This document shows, piece by piece, positions 12,224-29,060 of a stretch of 29,060 bases of DNA. Both the position numbers and the translations under genes were made by a program. The notes below the pieces were generated by a model. That model worked only from the letters and a program-made list of their open reading frames with translations. It had not been told where the DNA came from and ran no database searches. Origin of the DNA: a virus. Each line of letters begins with the position of its first letter. Position 1 is the first letter of the stretch. The stretch is from IMG/VR virus record IMGVR_UViG_3300021962_000475, positions 1 through 29,060 of that record. One strand, given 5' to 3'.

Positions 12224-13108
12224 ATGAAAGTACTCAAATTAGGTTCTAAAGGAAAAGAAGTAGAGGATCTTCAAAAATACCTTAAAATCAAAGTCGACGG
12301 AGATTTTGGTCCTAAAACAGAAGAAGCTGTTAAAAAATTCCAAACCGCAAATAAATTAGTTTCAGATGGTATCGTTGGTGAAAAAACATGGAATGTCATG
12401 GGTTTCTATATTACTACTGATTTATCTGAAACAGTTATATCCACTGAAAAATTGATCATAGATCAAAAGTACATGGATAAAGATGAATATTTGGCGGGAC
12501 CAACAAAAAAAGAATATTTGTTTTTACACCATACCGCTGGAGGACACGACCCTTATTCTGTAATCAAGATGTGGAACAACGACACTCGAGGAAGAGTCGG
12601 GACAGAGTTTGTTATGGGAGGTCAGTCCGTATTCAATGGTAATGACATATATGACGGAACTCTCGTTCAATGTTTTCCTGAAGGTGCTTACGGTTGGCAC
12701 TTGGGAGATAACGGTTCACAACACATGCACACTCATTCAGTGGGTATTGAAGTTTGTAATTTTGGTCCTATTAAAAATGGATTAACTTACACAGGACAGA
12801 AAGCAAACCCACTTCAAATTGTTGAACTAAAACAACCATTTAGAGGGTCTAAATTTTATCATAGATATTCTGACAAACAAATCAGCACACTTAAATCATT
12901 TATTTTATTCATTGCCGATAGAGATAATATCGATGTAAGAAAAGGATTGGTACAAGAGATAAAAAACAAAGGAGCTGCAGGTTTTGAATTTAATTCTGAC
13001 GCTTACTATGGAAAAGTAAAAGGTATGTGGACACATACTAATACGAGAAAAGACAAGTCTGACATGTTTCCTCAGCAAGAACTGATAGACATGTTGTTGT
13101 CTCTATAG
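12224..13108 (+). CDS. peptidoglycan-binding N-acetylmuramoyl-L-alanine amidase (endolysin)
   Basis: A 294-residue cell-wall hydrolase. Residues 3-57 are a PG_binding_1 repeat (LKLGSKGKEVEDLQKYL...VDGDFGPKTEEAVKKFQ...DGIVGEKTW). The rest is an Amidase_2/PGRP-type zinc amidase with FLHHTAGG (H102, H103), the W158-H159 pair, HSVGIEVCNFG near 171-181, and the closing MWTHTNTRKDKSDMFPQ, where H271 and D280 stand where the last zinc ligand and neighbour usually are. It cuts the bond between muramic acid and the stem peptide. There is no signal peptide, so it needs a holin or another exit route. It likely works with the lysozyme at 27391. Confidence 0.9.
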   Translation: MKVLKLGSKGKEVEDLQKYLKIKVDGDFGPKTEEAVKKFQTANKLVSDGIVGEKTWNVMGFYITTDLSETVISTEKLIIDQKYMDKDEYLAGPTKKEYLFLHHTAGGHDPYSVIKMWNNDTRGRVGTEFVMGGQSVFNGNDIYDGTLVQCFPEGAYGWHLGDNGSQHMHTHSVGIEVCNFGPIKNGLTYTGQKANPLQIVELKQPFRGSKFYHRYSDKQISTLKSFILFIADRDNIDVRKGLVQEIKNKGAAGFEFNSDAYYGKVKGMWTHTNTRKDKSDMFPQQELIDMLLSL

Positions 13109-16708: not shown

Positions 16709-17221
16709 ATGAATAAGTTTGATTTAACTGAGAAACTGAAAGAAGAGTTGAAAAAAAGAAATCTTTGGGAGCAAGAGGAAGATGAAGATGACCAAGATGA
16801 CGACCAAGATGACGACCAAGAGGTAGAAGATTCAGAAGAAGATTCAGAAGGTCATAACGAAGATTTCTGTGAAATGGTTTGTCAGTTGTTACATTCACAA
16901 ACACAAGTTCATATTTTTCATTTAGGGACCAAATCATACGCTGAACACAAAGCTCTGCAAGGTTATTATGAAGGTATTGACGCTTTGGTCGATGGAATTA
17001 TCGAATCGTTCCAAGGAAAGTATGGTTTACTTACTAATTACAAATCATACAAAAATCAATCCTACAAAAACAAAAATCAGGTATTGAAATACATGAAAGG
17101 ATTATTAAATACTATTGAGGAAAAAAGAGATTGTTGTGATGATTCATACATCCAAAATCAAATTGATACTGTACAAGAGTTGATTTATTCAACAATGTAT
17201 AAGTTGAAATTCCTTAACTAA
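16709..17221 (+). CDS. Dps/ferritin-like protein (DUF5856-type)
   Basis: A 170-residue protein. Residues 20-50 are an acidic, probably disordered spacer with the repeat DDQDDDQDDDQ. From 52 on it reads like Dps. Residues 66-100 align without gaps to the E. coli Dps ferroxidase region, placing H68, H80, D95 and E99 at the positions of its His51, His63, Asp78 and Glu82, while Asp67 is replaced by Q84. This resembles small Dps-like proteins of large phages (DUF5856). Iron binding or DNA protection is possible; the substitution makes activity uncertain. Its 3' end overlaps the opposite-strand gene by four bases. Confidence 0.72.
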   Translation: MNKFDLTEKLKEELKKRNLWEQEEDEDDQDDDQDDDQEVEDSEEDSEGHNEDFCEMVCQLLHSQTQVHIFHLGTKSYAEHKALQGYYEGIDALVDGIIESFQGKYGLLTNYKSYKNQSYKNKNQVLKYMKGLLNTIEEKRDCCDDSYIQNQIDTVQELIYSTMYKLKFLN

Positions 17222-18036
17222 TCTATTTCGTAAATATTATTTATAACATTCAGAGGGTCTCCTTCTGCGTCACCTTCGTATTCTTGTTCTGGCTTCCAAG
17301 ATGGAACTTTGTCGTCAATCTCATTAGTCTCGAGTAATATTGGTTCTGAATGATATATCATATTAACTTGATCATCGTTCAAGAATGTACCTTCAGGTAA
17401 TGATTTCAGTTCAGGGTTCAAACCAAAAAAATCAATTTCATCCTCTGTATAGTATTCATCACTTGATTCATACTCACCGGCACCATCACAATAATCGCAA
17501 TCAACTCGTCCATAACCATCACATCTGTTACAGTCAAATTCACCATTACCATTACATTCAGAACATTCAACATCCCCATTTCCTTGACAAACTGAACATG
17601 GTTCACCATCCACTTCACCACTACCATCACAGTTTCCACATTCTTCAGTTCCATTTCCATCACATCTATCACAATTTTGATTACCACTACCATCACAATT
17701 ACTGCAATATTCAGTTCCTGATCCGTCACATTCATGACATGTTTCATCACGAGTCCCTAAATCTCTATAATGATACATCCCAATGTTTATAAGATTACCA
17801 CGAACTTTAGAAAAGGAAGATTCAATATCTTTAGTTTGCGAAAAGAAGTAAACCATAAATGCAATCTCAACTTTTTCAATTCTTCTAACATTCTTCAAAA
17901 GAAGTTTCAATAGTTCATCATTATTAATATGAGACATAATTTGTCCAACATTCATATCATGATCTCCATGTTCATCAAGTAAATGATTATAAACTTGTTT
18001 TGTGAATACTTTATATTTTGAAGGTTGTAAGGACAT
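17218..18036 (-). CDS. protein with eight DnaJ-type CxxCxGxG zinc knuckles
   Basis: A 272-residue protein on the minus strand. Residues 100-187 hold eight CxxCxGxG knuckles (cysteine pairs starting at 100, 111, 122, 133, 147, 158, 169 and 180), mostly 11 residues apart. DnaJ has four, binding two zinc ions, so this array could bind four. There is no J domain (no HPD). The N-terminal 95 residues are helical and unrecognised, and the C-terminus is acidic. A role in binding unfolded protein or in redox chemistry is inferred from DnaJ. It is the only complete minus-strand gene here, convergent with the Dps-like gene and divergent from 18074. Confidence 0.82.
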   Translation of the reverse strand: MSLQPSKYKVFTKQVYNHLLDEHGDHDMNVGQIMSHINNDELLKLLLKNVRRIEKVEIAFMVYFFSQTKDIESSFSKVRGNLINIGMYHYRDLGTRDETCHECDGSGTEYCSNCDGSGNQNCDRCDGNGTEECGNCDGSGEVDGEPCSVCQGNGDVECSECNGNGEFDCNRCDGYGRVDCDYCDGAGEYESSDEYYTEDEIDFFGLNPELKSLPEGTFLNDDQVNMIYHSEPILLETNEIDDKVPSWKPEQEYEGDAEGDPLNVINNIYEID

Positions 18037-19473: not shown

Positions 19474-20280
19474 ATGATGACACCAGGACAAATGTGGGTA
19501 TCAAGAAGAATTGAAGATATAATAACTTCAACTGAAAGAGCCGCAAGCGATATTCATCCTGCCTATTATCCTAACTCCCAATCTTATATTACTGATGTGT
19601 TAGATGAAGTTTTATCACAACTTTATGATGGAAGTGCCACCGAATTAGAATCAGATTCATTTAATGATAAGTATTCAAGTGTTATAACAACATTAGAAGA
19701 AATATTTGGTGACGATCTTAAACATCATTATGATTCAGTATTTTCTAATGAACAAGAAACACTTAACGAAAGTGAGGTTTATAAAAATATTGAAAAACTT
19801 ATCAAACACTGGAAAAATCAATTAAAAAAAGGAGAACAAATTAGGTTTGAAACAGATGATTTAGAATTTTGGGGTATAACCAAACGATCTGATAAAATGA
19901 GAACCCAATTGTTATTTCAAGAGTTAGTAGGTGACGAGGTTTTTGCTGAAAAATTCATTAACAAACTACTAAATAAAACATTTTCAACAAAAGACTTTAG
20001 TGATAGAATTGTGGGAGGTTATGATTTTGAGTGGGTTCTTACTGATTTGGAATATAGAGATTTTGAATTCTTTTTATATGGTAAAACTTTACCAGGTGGA
20101 TCTGTAAGTTTGATGGATGGGAGACACCTGTCTTTACAAGAAGCAACCGAGGATGAATATCTTGGTTGGGAGATTCAAAGTGAAGTAAATGAGGTAGTTC
20201 AGGACTGTATGAATGAAATAATTTTACCCATTACTGGTTATGATGTTATTGTACCGGTTATTTATATATCAGAAGAATGA
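19474..20280 (+). CDS. hypothetical protein (268 aa)
   Basis: An acidic, mainly helical 268-residue protein that I do not recognise. Two ATG codons stand in tandem at the start, directly after the previous stop. It overlaps the first leader-family gene by ATGA, so the proteins are probably made together. It lacks the leader itself. Confidence 0.68.
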   Translation: MMTPGQMWVSRRIEDIITSTERAASDIHPAYYPNSQSYITDVLDEVLSQLYDGSATELESDSFNDKYSSVITTLEEIFGDDLKHHYDSVFSNEQETLNESEVYKNIEKLIKHWKNQLKKGEQIRFETDDLEFWGITKRSDKMRTQLLFQELVGDEVFAEKFINKLLNKTFSTKDFSDRIVGGYDFEWVLTDLEYRDFEFFLYGKTLPGGSVSLMDGRHLSLQEATEDEYLGWEIQSEVNEVVQDCMNEIILPITGYDVIVPVIYISEE

Positions 20281-20663
20281 AAATAATAATCTCAGAAAAA
20301 CAACAAAAGTTATTAACTGAGTCAAAAGGTATTGAGTTGGCACAAAACCTTATTGATCAGGCATTTGAGGAATTAAAAGAAAACTGTGAAAAAAAATGGG
20401 TTGAGCCTATGGCTTGTGATCAAATGGAATCTGTTGAAGAGGTTAAGGTTGTTGCATCAGAGAAAGGAGCAACAATGAGAGGAGGAAAAGAAATGAAACT
20501 TTGGTTTATCGAGGTTGACATATATTATTCATCGTTAGGATATACACCATTTGAAGATTTTATTCACCAACTTCAGTGGGAAGTAAGACAAATTGTCGGA
20601 GCTAGAAATGTTATAATAACAATTCGAGGTACTATAAACTCAAACAAAGATCCAAACTGGTAA
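20277..20663 (+). CDS. leader-family protein 1 (128 aa)
   Basis: The first of six genes that share an N-terminal leader. Here it reads MKIIISEKQQKLLTE, then S16; residues 13-15 are L-T-E. The body (SKGIELAQNLIDQAFEEL...FEDFIHQLQWEVRQIVG) resembles the first domain of the gene at 22141, so the two are paralogs beyond the leader. No catalytic motif is seen. Coupled by ATGA to the upstream gene and by one base (TAATG) to the next. Confidence 0.75.
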   Translation: MKIIISEKQQKLLTESKGIELAQNLIDQAFEELKENCEKKWVEPMACDQMESVEEVKVVASEKGATMRGGKEMKLWFIEVDIYYSSLGYTPFEDFIHQLQWEVRQIVGARNVIITIRGTINSNKDPNW

Positions 20664-21106
20664 TGAAAATAATAATATCAGAATCACAATATAATTTACT
20701 TTTTGAATCAAAGTTGAAACAAAATCTTAAACAGGAAATTAAAAATTTTGGGGTAAAAGATACTGCCGAACTTGTTAATGGTTTCGATAATTTAATGGAA
20801 ATATTAAACATAAATTCTCCGATGGATTTTTTACATTTGTTTAATGACTTAGATGTTGTTCAGAGTGAACAAGAACCTGATTGGACTTTATTTCGATATA
20901 AACCAACACATAATTTGATGATTTATGATAGAAAAGATAAAATTGTCCACATTAATTACGAAGAAATTTGGAAACCTTTATTTGATACTGGTCTTTTCAA
21001 TTCTGACATTGAGGAACTTACAAAGGAGTGGTTGTCTAGTGTCTACAATTTAAGGGGAGTCACAATTTCTCGGTGGATGAAGCTGGATTCAATGCAGGTT
21101 GTCTAG
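20663..21106 (+). CDS. leader-family protein 2 (147 aa)
   Basis: Leader MKIIISESQYNLLFE then S16. The body is acidic and helical and unlike those of its neighbours. The stop codon lies inside the second copy of a 20-base direct repeat, and the last residues (MQVV) look arbitrary, so the C-terminus may have been changed by a recent rearrangement. No family is recognised. Confidence 0.72.
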   Translation: MKIIISESQYNLLFESKLKQNLKQEIKNFGVKDTAELVNGFDNLMEILNINSPMDFLHLFNDLDVVQSEQEPDWTLFRYKPTHNLMIYDRKDKIVHINYEEIWKPLFDTGLFNSDIEELTKEWLSSVYNLRGVTISRWMKLDSMQVV

Positions 21107-21116
21107 TGTCTACAAT
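21030..21116 (+). repeat. 20-base direct repeat at the end of leader-family gene 2
   Basis: Positions 21030-21049 and 21097-21116 are identical over 20 bases, 67 bases apart start to start. The copies are in different reading frames and the second supplies the stop codon. Loss of one repeat period would end the protein as WLSSVYNIK. Confidence 0.85.
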
Positions 21117-21131
21117 ATAAAATAATAGAAT

Positions 21132-21722
21132 ATGAAAATAATAATATCAGAATCACAATATAGTTCACTTTTTGAATCCAACTACGAGAAGAATAAAAAG
21201 TTGGTTGAAAAGATGTGGGATGAAGGTATGTCTTTTTCGGATATTCGAGAACTGATTGGAATAACTAAAAGTCAACTTTATTTTCTTTTGAAAGATAAAG
21301 AACACAAAATTAACTGTTCCACCGCTTATCATGATATTTTAGATATTATAGAAAACACGGATCTAATAAATAAAAAAATAAATGTTAAAGATATTAAATT
21401 AGAACTCTATACAGATAGTTTTGTAGGAACTTTAAACTTTATTTATAGAGACGATGATTTTCATATTGAAGGGATGGCAACTCCTTACTATGACGGGAGT
21501 TGTTTAATACCTGTGGATATTAGTTATTTTGAAGATTTAACAACAAATGAATATAACGACGAGTATGATGAAATGCAAATGACCGTCGACTATGAGTTAG
21601 TTCCAAAAAAGTATAATTCATTCCAAGAAATGATTGATTTTATGAATAATGATTATCCACTTTTAATTATTCCTAAAATACAAAATTCAATACCACATTA
21701 CATAGATAGACTTAGTAAATGA
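21132..21722 (+). CDS. leader-family protein 3 with helix-turn-helix-like segment (196 aa)
   Basis: Leader MKIIISESQYSSLFE then S16. Directly after it, residues 18-50 (EKNKKLVEKMWDEGMSFSDIRELIGITKSQLYFLL) read like a helix-turn-helix, so DNA binding is possible. The remaining 140 residues are acidic and strand-rich with no recognised domain. A 25-base gap separates it from the previous gene and one base from the next. Confidence 0.72.
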   Translation: MKIIISESQYSSLFESNYEKNKKLVEKMWDEGMSFSDIRELIGITKSQLYFLLKDKEHKINCSTAYHDILDIIENTDLINKKINVKDIKLELYTDSFVGTLNFIYRDDDFHIEGMATPYYDGSCLIPVDISYFEDLTTNEYNDEYDEMQMTVDYELVPKKYNSFQEMIDFMNNDYPLLIIPKIQNSIPHYIDRLSK

Positions 21723-21723
21723 C

Positions 21724-22125
21724 ATGAAAATAATAATATCAGAATCACAACTCAGACTTATAAAAGAAGAATCCATTGCCGACATGGGTCTTCAGGAACT
21801 ATATGACAGGGCTATAAAATTAAAAAAGGTCGTTTCTAAAATGGTTAGAAAAGAGTTGGAAGATTATTCTTGGTTTGATGGATTACAAGTAAGTATTGAT
21901 AGAGATTGGGGGGGACTACCTTATTATTTTTTTAATATAAAAACAAATTTAAGTATTAGTGAAGACGACTTTTATAATCAAAAATTAGGTGATGAAATTC
22001 ATGATAAAATAGAAGATATTTTCATTCATTATTTTCCAAAGGTTAATAAAAATACACAATATAACTTAACTGGTGTTTGGGACGCTTTTATAACAGACAG
22101 ACATGAATATGTAATTCATATCTAA
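21724..22125 (+). CDS. leader-family protein 4 (133 aa)
   Basis: Leader MKIIISESQLRLIKE then E16-S17. The body (helical first, then strands such as FDGLQVSIDRDWGGLPYYFFNIKTN) has no recognised family. Its first 27 bases are identical to those of the genes at 20663 and 21132, whereas the rest differs fully. Confidence 0.72.
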   Translation: MKIIISESQLRLIKEESIADMGLQELYDRAIKLKKVVSKMVRKELEDYSWFDGLQVSIDRDWGGLPYYFFNIKTNLSISEDDFYNQKLGDEIHDKIEDIFIHYFPKVNKNTQYNLTGVWDAFITDRHEYVIHI

Positions 22126-22126
22126 A

Positions 22127-22140
22127 ACTATTTATTAAAT
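22127..22140 (+). promoter_or_regulatory. short TATTTAT box before leader-family gene 5
   Basis: ACTATTTATTAAAT lies directly before the start codon. The core begins 12 bases from the ATG, as short as the case at 1803. Confidence 0.35.
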
Positions 22141-22833
22141 ATGAAAATCATTATAACTGAAAATCAAAAAAATTTACTAGTTGAATCAAAACAAATTGAT
22201 TCAGTTCAAAATCTTGTTGATATGGCGGTTGATGATTATGTTGAAGTGTGTTCAAGAATGCATGCATTTAGAAACCTTGAACTTGCACTTTGTAAGGGGT
22301 TCAAGAACGGAACAACAAAACTTAAGGTTTTGGATGTAAAAAAAATACACGACCATTATAATGTAAAACTTTCTATACACACAGATCAAGAATGGTTTCA
22401 AAGAGCAGACTTTGAAGATTTTGAAATCAAATTACAACTTTTAGTTGCAAATATAATAGGAACACACAAATATGGGTTTGATCTGAGAGATATGGAATTA
22501 AATGATGGTGAAGGTGAGGACATGATTAGTGAAAGTCGTGAAATGAGTACTAAACTAAGACGAAGATTTAGTGAACTTGAAAAAATTGGCGATATAATTG
22601 AATACCAAACTGAAATTCAAGACCCTTGTGACTTTGAAGATGAAACTGACTACGCAGACTTTTGTATTGGACAAGGACTTACTTTTTACTATAATGATGA
22701 AGAAGATGAAGATTATGAATATCCACCAGACGAAATGGTTGAAGTTAGAGATGAGGTTGAGGATTATTTAGAAAAAAAATACCACGATTATTTGGTAGAT
22801 ATTTATAATGACTTAGTAACAAATTGTAAATAA
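22141..22833 (+). CDS. leader-family protein 5 (230 aa)
   Basis: Leader MKIIITENQKNLLVE then S16. Residues 16-115 resemble the body of the gene at 20277 (SKQIDSVQNLVDMAVDDY...FEDFEIKLQLLVANIIG). A second, very acidic part follows (CDFEDETDYADFC...NDEEDEDYEYPPDE). The leader is more diverged in DNA than in protein, so it is kept by selection and not only by recent copying. Overlaps the next gene by one base. Confidence 0.74.
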   Translation: MKIIITENQKNLLVESKQIDSVQNLVDMAVDDYVEVCSRMHAFRNLELALCKGFKNGTTKLKVLDVKKIHDHYNVKLSIHTDQEWFQRADFEDFEIKLQLLVANIIGTHKYGFDLRDMELNDGEGEDMISESREMSTKLRRRFSELEKIGDIIEYQTEIQDPCDFEDETDYADFCIGQGLTFYYNDEEDEDYEYPPDEMVEVRDEVEDYLEKKYHDYLVDIYNDLVTNCK

Positions 22834-23141
22834 TGAAAATACTATTAACAGAAAAACAGGCTGATAGAATATTCAACGACAAGATTGGGTGTGAAAAGTG
22901 TGAACACTCTTGGAAAAAGGAAGATAAGGATCCACACCCTTATCTTTGTCACGATTGTGGGTGGGATCAAAAGAAAAAAAAATATGATAAAGAAAATCTT
23001 CATAAGTTTTGGAAAAACTTTAAATCGAAAAGAGAAATAGAGGAAAAGTGGTCACAAAAATATAAAAAATCCATCAATTGCAATAATCCAAAGGGATTTA
23101 GTCAAAGAGCGCATTGTCAAGGAAGAAAGAAGAACAAATAA
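22833..23141 (+). CDS. leader-family protein 6, zinc ribbon (102 aa)
   Basis: A basic 102-residue protein with a diverged leader, MKILLTEKQADRIFND, which lacks the E15 of the others. A zinc ribbon follows: C20-x2-C23 ... C39-x2-C42 in CEKCEHSW...YLCHDCGWD. The end is the conserved-looking motif CNNPKGFSQRAHCQGRK, which I believe recurs in phage proteins but whose role I do not know. The high positive charge fits nucleic-acid binding. Confidence 0.75.
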   Translation: MKILLTEKQADRIFNDKIGCEKCEHSWKKEDKDPHPYLCHDCGWDQKKKKYDKENLHKFWKNFKSKREIEEKWSQKYKKSINCNNPKGFSQRAHCQGRKKNK

Positions 23142-23213: not shown

Positions 23214-26200
23214 ATGCCAATTAATATTTCGATACAACAAGTAGGTAATGATGTTCATATCAACGCAACGGCATCATTTGACCTTACAAAATTTGTGAAT
23301 GGAGTTTATAATAATACAATAACTAACACAATCAATAACTACAAATTCGGACCTGAAGCTCCAACTTTATTATTTTCACCTTTGAACAACCCATTAGTTG
23401 GAACCGCTTATGTTGTTCCTGATGTTTTTGCTTGGAAGTGTTATCCTGGTGCACCTGGAACGCCAGTTTTCAATTTATTAACTTATGTTGGAACTTTTTA
23501 CCAACCAACTTCTATTACATATAGTGAAGAGTGGGGTATTTATTTCGATCCTAATTCATTACAACCTGCTAAAATAATCTTACCTTTTGGATACAAAACT
23601 AATTCCGCGTTGACAGGTCAAATGATTTTTGCTAACACTACACTTTCAGCGATGGGGTTAATTACCCCTGGAGGTTTCACAGTGGGAGGTGCTAAAGCGG
23701 GATTCAGTTGGGGATCATCTCAGAATAATTCAGACTATTGTAGTGTTGTAATTGGTAATGGTGGTTTTACACATGCAAATGGATCAAACTATAAAGTGAG
23801 TGTTTATAATGATCCATTGAATAGTAATTTCGTAGTTGCTGAAGGAATCGGACCCCTTTGGTCAGGTCCCTTTACTACAAATAGTTACCAACTATTTCCA
23901 CCAGCAAGTATAAACCCATATAACTCCCAATTTGTTTTCAACCCTGGTAATAATCAGGTTAAACCTTATTTTTTAAATGCGGCACCTTATATACAAACTT
24001 CAATACCTACAGTAACAGGAGGGACATTCCAAGGAACATTCTCACCTTTTAATGTAATCAACAATCAAGGTTTTTGGAGAGGTGACGATGCGGGTGGAAA
24101 TTCAGGTCTGAATACGAGAAATAAATTTTGTCCGGCATTGGCGATCAATTCACAAAAACTTATATTTGCCACTACAAATATACAAGATTTAGGTATCACA
24201 AACGGAGAATACACATTCAGTGGTGTAAACAACACAATAAGTTATAGTTTCAACGGAGAAGGGGTTACTCCAACACCAACTGCGACTGTAACAAATACAC
24301 CAACAATAACACCAACACCAAATTATGATTGTATAACAGTAAATTCTGAGTGTGGAAATATACAGGTAAGTGCTGGACCATTCCTCAACGGAAAACCAAC
24401 TTATTCATGGAGTTTTATTGTTACGGCACAACAATACAATTATACAATTTATTGGGATCCTAATCTTGGTGCTTGGGTCCTTAGAGAGAATACTACAAAC
24501 ACGATTGCACAATATCTTTATCTAAATACACCAGCACCTATAGGAAATGTTAATCAATGGGTAGATGCCCCAATATTACCTGGTCCAAGTGTTGGTTGTG
24601 TATTTGCAGGAGCACAATTTTTCACCACATTATCAACCAATTGTCCTACACCAACCCCAACCACAACAGCAACTGTTACACCGACAGCCACAGTTACCCC
24701 AACTGTAACAAAAACACCTACAGTTACGGCTCAACCAACTAGAACACCAACGGTTACCGCAACTAAAACACCAACACAGACTGCAACTCAATCACAAACA
24801 CCAAGACCTACTGAGACACCGACAAATACACCAACACCAACTGCGGGAATACAAGAGTTCTGTCCGTCCAGAGCACAATTGGCACAACCAGGAATTGATG
24901 GTACACTTCTTGGAGTTAATTACTCCGCTACAGGTAGTGGAGTGAGCGTTGGGCCATTAGGTACAAATGTGTTCTATAACCAATATATTGGAACATTCCA
25001 AATGTTACAAGATGTGACTTTAGGTATTGGTGCACCATTCAACTACACTATTGATTTTGCAACTCCTCTCACAAACTTCCAATTCTTAATTTATGGATTA
25101 GACACAGGAATTGAACTTGTAAACTTCTTTGTTGACAGTAATGTGAATTTTACTTTAGTACAACTATTAAATGCTGGAACTATTGTTAATGGAAATGCAA
25201 TTAAAGCGGATGCAACATTCCCACTATCAAGAACTGCAGGTTACTATCAAATCCAATCACCAACACCATTTACCAAAATTACATTAATTGGATCACAGGG
25301 ACCTGATGACGGTATTGGATTCCAATTCTGTACATTAGAGGCTGAAATTCCAACACCAACACCTACTGAGACACCAACTTTAACTCCATCAAACACACCA
25401 ACACAAACTCCGGCTCAAACACAAACTGCAACACCAACAAATACAGTTTCAGTAACACCAAGTACAACATTGACCGCAACACCGACACAGACTGCAAATC
25501 CAACAAGTACTCCTACTGCAACCGTTACTCCTACTGTTACCACAACACCTACTAACACTATTACTCCTACTGAAACGCCTACAAATACACCAACACAAAC
25601 CCCTACAGATACGCCATCACCAACAAATTCACCAACAGTGACTAATACTGTTACACCATCTAACACGCCAACAAATACTCAAACACCAAGTGTTACGCCT
25701 AACCCAACAAAAACACCAACCGCAACTGTTACTCCAACAGTAACAAACACACCTACAAATACAGAAACACCTACCAACACACCTACAAATTCAGAAACAC
25801 CTACAAATACACCAACACCATCTAATACAGAAACACCAACTGTAACTCCTACTAATACACCAACAAACACTGAAACACCAACTAACACTCCTACACCTTC
25901 TATAACTGAATCACCAGGAGCATCACCAACACCTACACCAACTAATACAGCAAGTGTAACTCAAACACCAACTAATACACCGTCAGAAACACCAACTAAT
26001 ACTCCAACCGTTACTTTAACAAGAACACCAGCTGAGACACCTGCAGGTACACCTGACCCAACTCAAACACCGACAGAAACTGTAACACCAACTGTAACTA
26101 CAACCCCTACAAATACAATTACACCAACTAATACACCTACAAACTCACAAACTGCAACGGCTACGGTTACACCTACAAACACCATGACACCAACTGAAAC

Positions 26201-26888
26201 ACCGACAAACACACCATCGAATACACCTACTCAAACGAGTACACCGTCTAACACGCCTGAACCAACTGTGAGTCCTACTGCCACTGTTACACCTACTGTA
26301 ACAACAACACCAACTAATACAATTACGGCAACTATAACATCTACCCCAACAAATACTGAAACGCCAACAAATACACCAAGTAACACTGTAACACCAACAA
26401 ATACACCAACAAACACTCAGACGCCAACAAATACACCAACAAATACACAAACTCAAACCAATACACCATCAAACACGGAAACGCCAACTAACACACCAAC
26501 TGTAACACCAACTGCAACACCAACATTGACATTCTTCCCAACACCTACAACAACACCTACAAATACCGCAACACCAACAATGACAATGACAAACACACCT
26601 ACCGATTCACCACCAGCGACTGTTACCCCAACAAATACGGCGACAGTAACCCCAACCCCAACAAACACAGCAACAAACACAGCAACTCCTACTGTTACCG
26701 CAACTCAAACTGCTACACCAACAAATACACCTTCGGTTACCCCAACCATATCAGTTACAGCATCAAATACACCAACACCTACAGTTACCCCAACTTATAC
26801 ACCTTATCCAACAGTTACTCCTACATCACCTAACTGTTGTCCGATTATTTTAGCGGTGGATACGAATCCTTGTAACACAAATATTTAA
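23214..26888 (+). CDS. large Thr/Pro-rich repeat protein, probable virion surface protein
   Basis: A 1224-residue protein. Residues 1-350 are a strand-rich region of Asn, Gly and aromatic residues; a short TP linker (352-370) leads to a second domain (371-476), then a longer TP linker (478-543), a third domain with two cysteines (545-710), and about 494 residues (713-1206) of TPTNTPT-type repeats. It ends with [18 protein letters not shown]. There is no signal peptide or membrane helix. Globular domains on mucin-like stalks suggest a fibre or surface decoration; the Thr density makes it a possible O-glycosylation target. Structural role is inferred from architecture and late-type context only. 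Confidence 0.7.
25350..26828 (+). repeat. Thr/Pro coding tandem-repeat tract
   Basis: About 1.48 kb of imperfect short repeats encoding TPTNTPT-type units. A longer order is present: a block of about 24 residues ([24 protein letters not shown]) recurs four times, beginning its ATV/ETV part at 25518, 25722, 26076 and 26280. The first and third intervals are both exactly 204 bases. Confidence 0.85.
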
Positions 26889-27390: not shown

Positions 27391-28059
27391 ATGAATCATT
27401 TTAAAACACAATTGTTGAATTTTTTGTTGAACCCAAAAACTTTTACAGGTATCGTTTCATTTTCTTTTATTATAATTATTGGGGGTTACATAAATAAACA
27501 TACCGAACCAACTCTTAAAATTGTTGAAAAAGAAAAAGTAAAAGTTGTTGAAAAAATTATTGTTAGAACAGCATCCGCTGATCTTGTACCTCATTTAAAA
27601 AATGTTGAAGGTTACAGAGATAAACCTTACATGTTGGGAGATGGTGCTGTAACAATTGGGTATGGTCATGCTGTATTTAAAGGTGAAAAAGAAGGATATA
27701 AATTCCTTGAAGATTATAACGGACTCAGAAGAAAAAAAACAAAAATTACCCTTGATCAAGCTGAAATTTTACTTTTTGATGACATTAAAATCGCAGAAAA
27801 AAATTTAAATAATTTGTTAGATGATATCAACAAATCTGGATCCGAAGTAGAAATTACACAGGGAATGTATAACTCCATGATTTCATTGATTTTCAACATG
27901 GGGTATTACGGATTTAAAAAATCAGACTTTTTCAAACATGTAAAAGAAAATGATTTAGAATCGGCCAAAAATCAAATTCTCAAAACTAGTAAAAGACTAT
28001 TTATTAGATATCCTGGACTCAAAGCTAGAAGAGAGTCCGAGTATGCAATGTTCAAATGA
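27391..28059 (+). CDS. membrane-anchored GH24 lysozyme
   Basis: A 222-residue endolysin. A hydrophobic helix (about residues 19-33) forms a signal anchor, followed by a short coiled segment and a T4-type GH24 lysozyme domain from about residue 63. The core NVEGYRDKPYMLGDGAVTIGYGH has the catalytic E73, T88 and H93. Aligned to T4 lysozyme without gaps, the Asp20 position is L82, with D84 two residues later. It would cleave the glycan strand of peptidoglycan from the periplasmic side. The anchor suggests Sec export without a holin, like SAR-type endolysins. Coupled by ATGA to the next gene. Confidence 0.85.
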   Translation: MNHFKTQLLNFLLNPKTFTGIVSFSFIIIIGGYINKHTEPTLKIVEKEKVKVVEKIIVRTASADLVPHLKNVEGYRDKPYMLGDGAVTIGYGHAVFKGEKEGYKFLEDYNGLRRKKTKITLDQAEILLFDDIKIAEKNLNNLLDDINKSGSEVEITQGMYNSMISLIFNMGYYGFKKSDFFKHVKENDLESAKNQILKTSKRLFIRYPGLKARRESEYAMFK

Positions 28060-28715
28060 TCGATAACGAAAAAATATTAAAACTATTCAAACATTTTGCA
28101 GGTGATCCTTTGGACATCAAAGGGTTGGTTGTTACACCCGTTAAAGTAGAACCATCTGTCAGAAGAAATGGTAGAACTAATATGTATTTTAAAGTTCAAA
28201 ACCCAAATGATGTTTCTTATTTCTCTCCAATTGTTGAAAATTATATTTATGATGAAACAGAAGACTTTGGGGATTTTGTAAATGAAAAAATTGATGTGTA
28301 TTTTGTACCAAACTTTAAACAAGGAATTTATTTAAATGAAGAATTAAAATCAAGAATTCAAAAAGTATTTGATTCGGTAAAGGTTATTGAGTTTACATTA
28401 GGAACTCCTTTTATTGGTTATGAAAGATACAAATTATTTATTGAATCAGTTGGTGTATCAACAAGTTATTGGGATAATGAAAGTTTTGGTTTATACAATA
28501 ATGTGAAAGTAGTAAGAGCCGAAAAAGATGGTGAGTGGTGGGATCCTAAAGTTGTTGTAAGTGAATATCTTAATGACTTTCTACCTGACAAAGAAAGTTA
28601 CTGGGAAACAGAAAATTTTTACCCCCAAATTGACAACATCTTAAACAATTATCCCCTCTTTATAGATTTATACGGCAACATTTCAGGTTACTACGACACC
28701 AAGTTTATCCAATAA
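28056..28715 (+). CDS. hypothetical protein (219 aa)
   Basis: A 219-residue acidic protein rich in aromatic residues, with no motif I recognise. It is coupled to the lysozyme gene by ATGA and its 3' end overlaps the convergent uvrC-like gene by 11 bases, so no terminator or attachment site lies between them. Confidence 0.7.
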   Translation: MIDNEKILKLFKHFAGDPLDIKGLVVTPVKVEPSVRRNGRTNMYFKVQNPNDVSYFSPIVENYIYDETEDFGDFVNEKIDVYFVPNFKQGIYLNEELKSRIQKVFDSVKVIEFTLGTPFIGYERYKLFIESVGVSTSYWDNESFGLYNNVKVVRAEKDGEWWDPKVVVSEYLNDFLPDKESYWETENFYPQIDNILNNYPLFIDLYGNISGYYDTKFIQ

Positions 28716-29060
28716 CTTTCTTCGATCTTTTTTGTCGGTGAAAAGAAATAACAAATCTGTGAACTTCATTTTGAACTTCAGCCAACAAGAATCCAAACTC
28801 ATTTCGTGGAATATCAAATGACGATCCATTAGTCAAGTGGATTGTTTGAGATTGGTGTTTGTCGTTTTTAGAAATAGAAATCAAATCAATATGGGACAAT
28901 AAACCAATAGACTCAAATACTTGTTTTGCAACACCCAACTGACCTTTACCACCATCAATAACAACAAGTGAAGGTAATTCTTGTTTCTCGTTCAAAAGTC
29001 TTGTAAAACGACGAGAAAGAACTTCAGTGAATGAAGCGTAGTCATCAGGTCCCTCAACAG
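28705..29060 (-). CDS. uvrC: UvrC-like excinuclease subunit, C-terminal part (5' end off the window)
   Basis: The minus-strand frame is open from the right edge to 28705 and encodes the C-terminal nuclease region of UvrC: GPDDYASFTEVLSRRF, then LVVIDGGKGQL with the RNase H-like catalytic Asp, DLISISKND, PRNEFGFLLAEVQNEVHRF and SFHRQKRSK. UvrC makes both cuts around DNA damage with UvrA and UvrB. The protein stops at RSKKVIG, where the usual linker and two helix-hairpin-helix motifs should follow; the DNA beyond the stop does not encode them in another frame. Whether the N-terminal GIY-YIG domain is present cannot be seen. Confidence 0.88.
   Translation of the reverse strand, partial: VEGPDDYASFTEVLSRRFTRLLNEKQELPSLVVIDGGKGQLGVAKQVFESIGLLSHIDLISISKNDKHQSQTIHLTNGSSFDIPRNEFGFLLAEVQNEVHRFVISFHRQKRSKKVIG

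Follow-up and report, generated by a model that had tools for sequence, protein, structure and literature searches.

A shared N-terminal leader on unlike phage proteins as a probable T4-like capsid-targeting signal

Why should several neighbouring phage genes, encoding mostly unlike proteins, all open with the same 15-residue leader? The question is raised by a gene array in the IMG/VR virus record IMGVR_UViG_3300021962_000475, analysed here from position 1 to 29,060 (the window, a 29,060-base fragment of a virus record that contains no head genes). Five adjacent open reading frames (ORFs) on the plus strand start with MKIII(S/T)ExQ and carry L or I at residue 13 and E at residue 15, followed by S16 in 4 of the 5 genes and by E16-S17 in the gene at 21724. 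This pattern, reported in a preliminary description of the locus, agrees both with the ORF translations and with a shuffle test, in which the DNA pattern for MKIII(S/T)ExQ matched the window exactly 5 times, against 0.00 expected from 100 dinucleotide-preserving shuffles. In our view, the leader is likely to be a capsid-targeting propeptide that is processed by a gp21-type protease, in a system that resembles that of phage T4 but has its own leader sequences and a larger set of cargo proteins. The earlier count of 5 leader genes holds for the array proper but proved low, there being a diverged sixth at 22833-23141:

20277..20663, plus strand: leader protein 1, 128 amino acids; leader MKIIISEKQQKLLTE (20277-20321), body from S16
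20663..21106, plus strand: leader protein 2, 147 amino acids; leader MKIIISESQYNLLFE (20663-20707)
21132..21722, plus strand: leader protein 3, 196 amino acids; leader MKIIISESQYSSLFE (21132-21176)
21724..22125, plus strand: leader protein 4, 133 amino acids; leader MKIIISESQLRLIKE (21724-21768), then E16 S17
22141..22833, plus strand: leader protein 5, 230 amino acids; leader MKIIITENQKNLLVE (22141-22185); two domains, the first homologous to the 20277 protein
22833..23141, plus strand: sixth, diverged leader protein, 102 amino acids; zinc-ribbon-like body; leader MKILLTEKQADRIFND (22833-22880)

The bodies behind the leaders are indeed unlike, apart from one paralogous pair, namely, leader protein 1 and the N-terminal half of the 22141 protein. 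Pfam and PHROGs searches with the window bodies gave no function: leader protein 1, which has relatives with 79% identity in L265-L267, yielded no Pfam family and only a weak PHROG match, leader protein 2 neither a Pfam nor a PHROG family, and the body of leader protein 3 a weak helix-turn-helix-like match.

Is the leader peculiar to this array? The exact pattern occurs in at least 120 stretches in IMG/VR, with up to four copies per stretch and on contigs of up to 296 kb. A stricter pattern, which adds L13 and E15, was found in at least 119 viral stretches, whereas 257 Gb of bacterial and archaeal genomes yielded a single match. This cellular match (L276 / L093) lies on a Prochlorococcus single-cell contig of 83,794 bp, for which IMG/VR lists a viral contig of equal length, 83,794 bp, with a leader ORF of the same length and N-terminus; the leader protein on the Prochlorococcus contig has peptidoglycan-binding and M23 domains. 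Given that at least 119 viral stretches stand against one cellular match, itself listed as viral, the leader is essentially a phage feature. The expectation that further proteins would carry such leaders was borne out in ten contigs, the window included, where 6 to 30 N-termini per contig follow the general form of the leader, compared with 0.15 to about 1 expected from the internal rate; in the fetched contigs taken separately, the counts are 9 to 30 each, with about 0.3 to 1 expected. A chance origin of the leader set was rejected on the strength of these counts and of the shuffles. We found no occurrence of the leader strings MKIIISE and LTESDL in the literature, and a short-peptide tblastn search against phage records gave no match, which is uninformative at such length. 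The leader proteins at window position 21132 and in L101 have no relative among deposited phages, and a DHH-like leader protein matches only unannotated metagenomic giant phages.

In the same ten contigs, the leaders fall into three plain classes, A (MKIII(T/S)ExQ), B (MKKIIRLTESDLTRIVKRVIKE) and C (MKKFIITEEEKxRILxMH), along with a class D consisting of a short helix of the form MKxLIKxILKE, for example, MKELIRNILKEE. Most classes end in (I/L/V)xE. Class A comprises 187 proteins with 72 unrelated body clusters, among which I3-I5, T/S6 and L/I13 dominate; M1, K2, E7 and Q9 were fixed by the search itself. The preliminary description had placed an (L/I)xE site at residue 15, which holds for all five array genes; across the 72 class-A bodies, however, the E of [LIVMF]xE falls at residue 15 in only 32%, at 16 in 18% and at 20 in 10%, against a background of about 2%, so that the uniform position in the array is a local rather than a class-wide feature. 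With E allowed anywhere at residues 13-22, the motif is present in 69% of class A, compared with 16-29% in later windows. The site is sharper in class B, where [LIVMF]xE sits at one position in 84% of 57 unrelated bodies (about 2% elsewhere) and sequence conservation stops right there, and looser in class C, with 40% at the best position (20 clusters). Among the remaining genes, 4.6% have class D-type motifs, compared with 0.8% for internal windows. The (L/I)xE end, viewed as a cleavage consensus, is thus present in most leaders but not in all.

A targeting signal of this type calls attention to the head genes of the phages that carry it. The prohead protease proposed in the preliminary description is not encoded in the 29-kb fragment, but a T4-type protease and capsid are present in G063, a 140-kb contig that is the nearest sizeable relative of the window and holds most of the array at about 80% identity, and in other leader-bearing contigs, including G069, another close relative with both S77 and gp23. 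The Peptidase_S77 prohead protease was found in 31 of the 33 leader-bearing contigs that have a T4-type portal; the two exceptions, G019 and G045, are contigs that end close to the portal. A gp23 capsid gene is present in 10 of the first 22 contigs as well as in G063 and G069, and no HK97-family capsid (PF05065) was detected in 70 contigs. The head genes are arranged in the order portal, protease, acidic scaffold, capsid. As anticipated, these head proteins carry similar sites: (I/L/V)(N/T)E followed by A, S or T occurs at residue 60 or 61 of the capsid protein, just before the conserved domain, in all 13 N-termini compared, [LIVM]xE occurs at residues 33-42 of the S77 pro-region in 13 of 14 proteases, and [LIVM]xE sites are present in the scaffold. 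The position of the capsid site resembles that of the cut in T4 gp23. Separately, G003 (L177-L190) contains two head modules that look complete and differ in their capsid, portal and S77 genes; one of them resembles that of the cultured Flavobacterium phage vB_FspM_immuto. This contig is either chimeric or a join of two phages.

These sequence-level checks support the T4-like capsid-targeting interpretation, under which unrelated cargo proteins would share a signal whose extended first stretch, MKIII(T/S), leads into an amphipathic helix with (L/I)xE at its end. By binding to the scaffold or core of a T4-type prohead during assembly, the leader would draw the cargo into the head. There, cleavage behind (L/I)xE by a gp21-type serine protease (Peptidase_S77), as is also expected for the capsid and protease precursors, would leave the mature cargo to be ejected with the DNA. 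Both residues 13-15 and the invariant (I)(T/S)E at residues 5-7 fit the cleavage consensus, and either or both could be cut.

Several observations weigh against this scheme. The agreement between the capsid and protease sites is support rather than proof because [LIVM]xE, a loose motif, can also be found at other places in the N-termini of these proteins. About a third of the class-A bodies have no (L/I)xE near the leader end, and both predicted structures, those of the 20277 and 20663 proteins, run one helix across the proposed cut. No head genes are found in the window itself, and many leader-bearing contigs are likewise without them; these are presumably fragments, and the association is testable only where the head module is present. 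Furthermore, the leader proteins include peptidoglycan hydrolases, which could be ordinary endolysins. The missing sites and the continuous helix would suit an uncut docking tag, with MKIII(T/S)ExQ bringing its proteins to the head core, portal, tail or some other phage complex and the E near residue 15 only marking the end of a helix; in the same vein, MKIII(T/S)ExQxxxL is steadier than the (L/I)xE end, and the bodies in L010 and L055 run on without a site. Yet, classes A and B share the (I/L/V)xE end, immediately after which class B conservation breaks off, and a like site precedes the capsid fold in S77-bearing phages, so we regard an uncut tag as unlikely.

Could the leader instead be an integral N-terminal piece of a common fold? 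The helix that is continuous with the body in both models would fit such a piece, but the leader precedes at least 72 unrelated bodies, and homologous bodies occur with other leaders or with none. The 20663 body, for instance, carries a class-A leader in the window, MKELIRNILKEE in G004 and no leader in G002, and a head-cluster protein (G004 83713-84174 and relatives) combines a constant body with a class B or a short class D leader, depending on the genome, joined at xE. In the predicted structures of the 20277 and 20663 proteins, the bodies are confident, and the leader is the least confident part apart from the C-terminal tails. The leader as an integral fold piece, a possibility raised at the outset, was rejected on account of the 72 unrelated bodies and the homologs with other leaders or none, and we now give it hardly any credence. 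A fold search with the two models returned no significant PDB match; it gave weak OsmC/Ohr-like matches for 20277 and matches to uncharacterised phage proteins for 20663.

A further question is whether selection acts on the peptide or on the nucleic acid beneath it. Were the shared stretch mainly a DNA or RNA element (a promoter, a translation start or a recombination cassette), the peptide would be incidental, and several features fit this picture. Leader DNA is homogenised between neighbours: over 45 nt, the leaders of 20663 and 21132 share 96% identity, which drops to 42% over the next 45 nt compared, the bodies being unrelated. Among close relatives, synonymous changes are fewer in leader codons (12/148) than in bodies (255/1269), which fits recent exchange between leaders. 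Finally, a TATTTAT box is enriched upstream, with two instances in the array:

20259..20265, plus strand: TATTTAT box 5' of 20277
22129..22135, plus strand: TATTTAT box starting 12 nt 5' of 22141

On the other side, when leaders on unrelated bodies are compared, their codon choice differs little from that of the genome as a whole, third positions following this background while the residues are fixed, and the leader classes share peptide features despite different DNA. Selection thus appears to act mainly on the peptide; a purely DNA-level element was rejected because of the background-like codon use, and an element that acts mainly at the DNA or RNA level strikes us as very improbable. The box, located about 12 or 21-24 nt 5' of the start codon, precedes 59% of leader genes and 34% of structural genes. 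The corresponding share is 19% among genes that have no homolog in immuto and 8% among replication and nucleotide genes; none of 74 replication homologs has an A, B or C leader. The enrichment is consistent with late expression, and the box is possibly the late promoter of this phage group.

What, then, are the leaders attached to? Leaders of type A, B or C precede 121 body clusters, few of which have a Pfam family, and peptidoglycan enzymes recur among those that do; single DHH-like and GDSL/SLT leader proteins occur in other contigs. The cell-wall enzymes among the annotated leader proteins are of several kinds (M23, lysozyme with LysM, SLT with GDSL). The recurrence of cell-wall enzymes raises the prospect that the leader targets its proteins elsewhere, to the membrane, periplasm or tail, as might be expected of virion-associated or lysis peptidoglycan hydrolases. 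By inspection, however, the leader is not a hydrophobic signal peptide: it contains a charged amphipathic helix of about 10 residues and no hydrophobic core with a signal-peptidase site. Moreover, the majority of leader bodies cannot be recognised as cell-wall enzymes, the leader sites match those of the capsid and protease, and two cell-wall enzymes of the window, at 12224-13108 and 27391-28059 (an amidase with a peptidoglycan-binding domain and a membrane-anchored-looking lysozyme), are leaderless. Such a destination is, in our view, quite improbable.

Two additional features of the window concern the modular exchange of leaders and bodies:

19474..20280, plus strand: gene 5' of the array, residues 90-267 homologous to the body of a G004 leader protein
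22522..22563, plus strand: second-leader remnant inside 22141, MISESREMSTKLRR, residues 128-141, heading the second domain (by sequence comparison)

The ortholog of the 19474-20280 gene is a separate leader protein in L257 and L269 (in L257, MKIIISEHQFNFLNE followed by S); in the window, the body is fused to a different N-terminal part and retains the decayed leader VFSNEQETLNES (19738-19773), which ends in LNES. In L010 and L055, the second domain of the 22141 protein starts with MKIIITESQELSL, and MISESREMSTKLRR is a probable decayed second leader. The end of the sixth leader varies among relatives, reading FNE in L257 and FNN in L262, and the 20663 body occurs twice in tandem in L269. Because of the fused 19474 gene, the probable second leader in 22141 and the tandem bodies of L269, the array is a site where leader-plus-body units are duplicated, shuffled and fused. 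A bolder and much more tentative extension is that the several leader classes (A, MKIIITESQ; B, MKKIIRLTESDL; C, MKKFIITEEEK; D, MKxLIKxILKE) might form an addressing code in large T4-like phages of Bacteroidota, each class with its own prohead partner, such that tens of proteins per genome would be loaded and cargo exchanged by recombination at the leader.

Elsewhere in the window, positions 23214-26888 encode a 1224-amino-acid protein that consists mostly of TPT/NTPT repeats and matches no Pfam family. The minus strand has very few likely genes, among them 17218-18036, for a cysteine-rich protein with DnaJ-type CxxCxGxG repeats. Also on the minus strand, 28705-29058 encodes a UvrC-like C-terminal part (Pfam UvrC_RNaseH_dom, E 1e-26) that runs off the window end, and is either phage-encoded or a join with bacterial DNA.

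If the leaders are capsid-targeting propeptides, the proteins that a phage loads into its head, and probably injects into the host, could be listed from the genome, with about ten to thirty candidates each. Hardly any of these have a known function, and early host-takeover or anti-defence proteins would likely be among them. Capsid targeting, known from a few T4 proteins, would then apply to a large class of aquatic phages, and the leaders would offer new tags for loading proteins into phage heads.

How does this system compare with those already known? Homologs of the ribosomal protein bS21 are encoded in five fetched contigs, G018 (L154 1999-2181), G001, G003, G016 and G020, one of them confirmed by Pfam; the G018 gene is located within the head cluster, on the opposite strand. 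Bacteroidetes phages that encode bS21 have the same kind of head cluster (TerL, portal, prohead protease and capsid, with bS21 in the opposite orientation), and such leaders are not mentioned in the portion of the source on which this comparison draws (PMC9723584). Because the bS21 homologs lie in the head cluster where their position was checked, as in those Bacteroidetes phages, Bacteroidota hosts are likely for the group and probable for the window itself; bS21 was not found in G004, a fetched contig with the window's array. Phage immuto is a cultured relative in both capsid and S77 protease, and its capsid site reads IVSE followed by A. It has no class-A, B or C leaders except for one chance-like match, along with a few short class-D-like N-termini; as a proxy for proteomics, it is without these leaders, and we found no virion data for it in the literature.

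The giant phages phiKZ, 201phi2-1 and SPN3US are similar in that they are large and that a gp21-related protease cleaves many of their head proteins behind a glutamate motif (PMC9026906). The phiKZ motif, however, is S/A-X-E, whereas the phages analysed here have strong S77 matches, a gp23-type capsid and leaders in classes recognisable from sequence. The closest parallel is with the signals of T4 IPI, IPII, IPIII and Alt and with gp21: a short N-terminal peptide ending in (L/I)xE on unlike proteins, in phages with an S77 protease and T4-type portal, scaffold and gp23 capsid. T4 gp21 cuts after L/I-X-E; in IPIII, the first 10 residues suffice for packaging, with residues 4 and 7 mattering most for targeting and 8 and 10 for processing, so that the layout, a constant targeting front with a processing part behind, is alike (PMC9026906). 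In the present phages, scaffold binding, cleavage, packaging and injection are inferred. The leaders themselves presumably differ from the T4 signal, with which they appear to have little in common beyond MK and the terminal E. Some class-A leaders, unlike T4 signals, lack the site. The mechanism is, on our analysis, T4-like but, compared with T4, is deployed with several leader classes and many more candidate proteins per genome.

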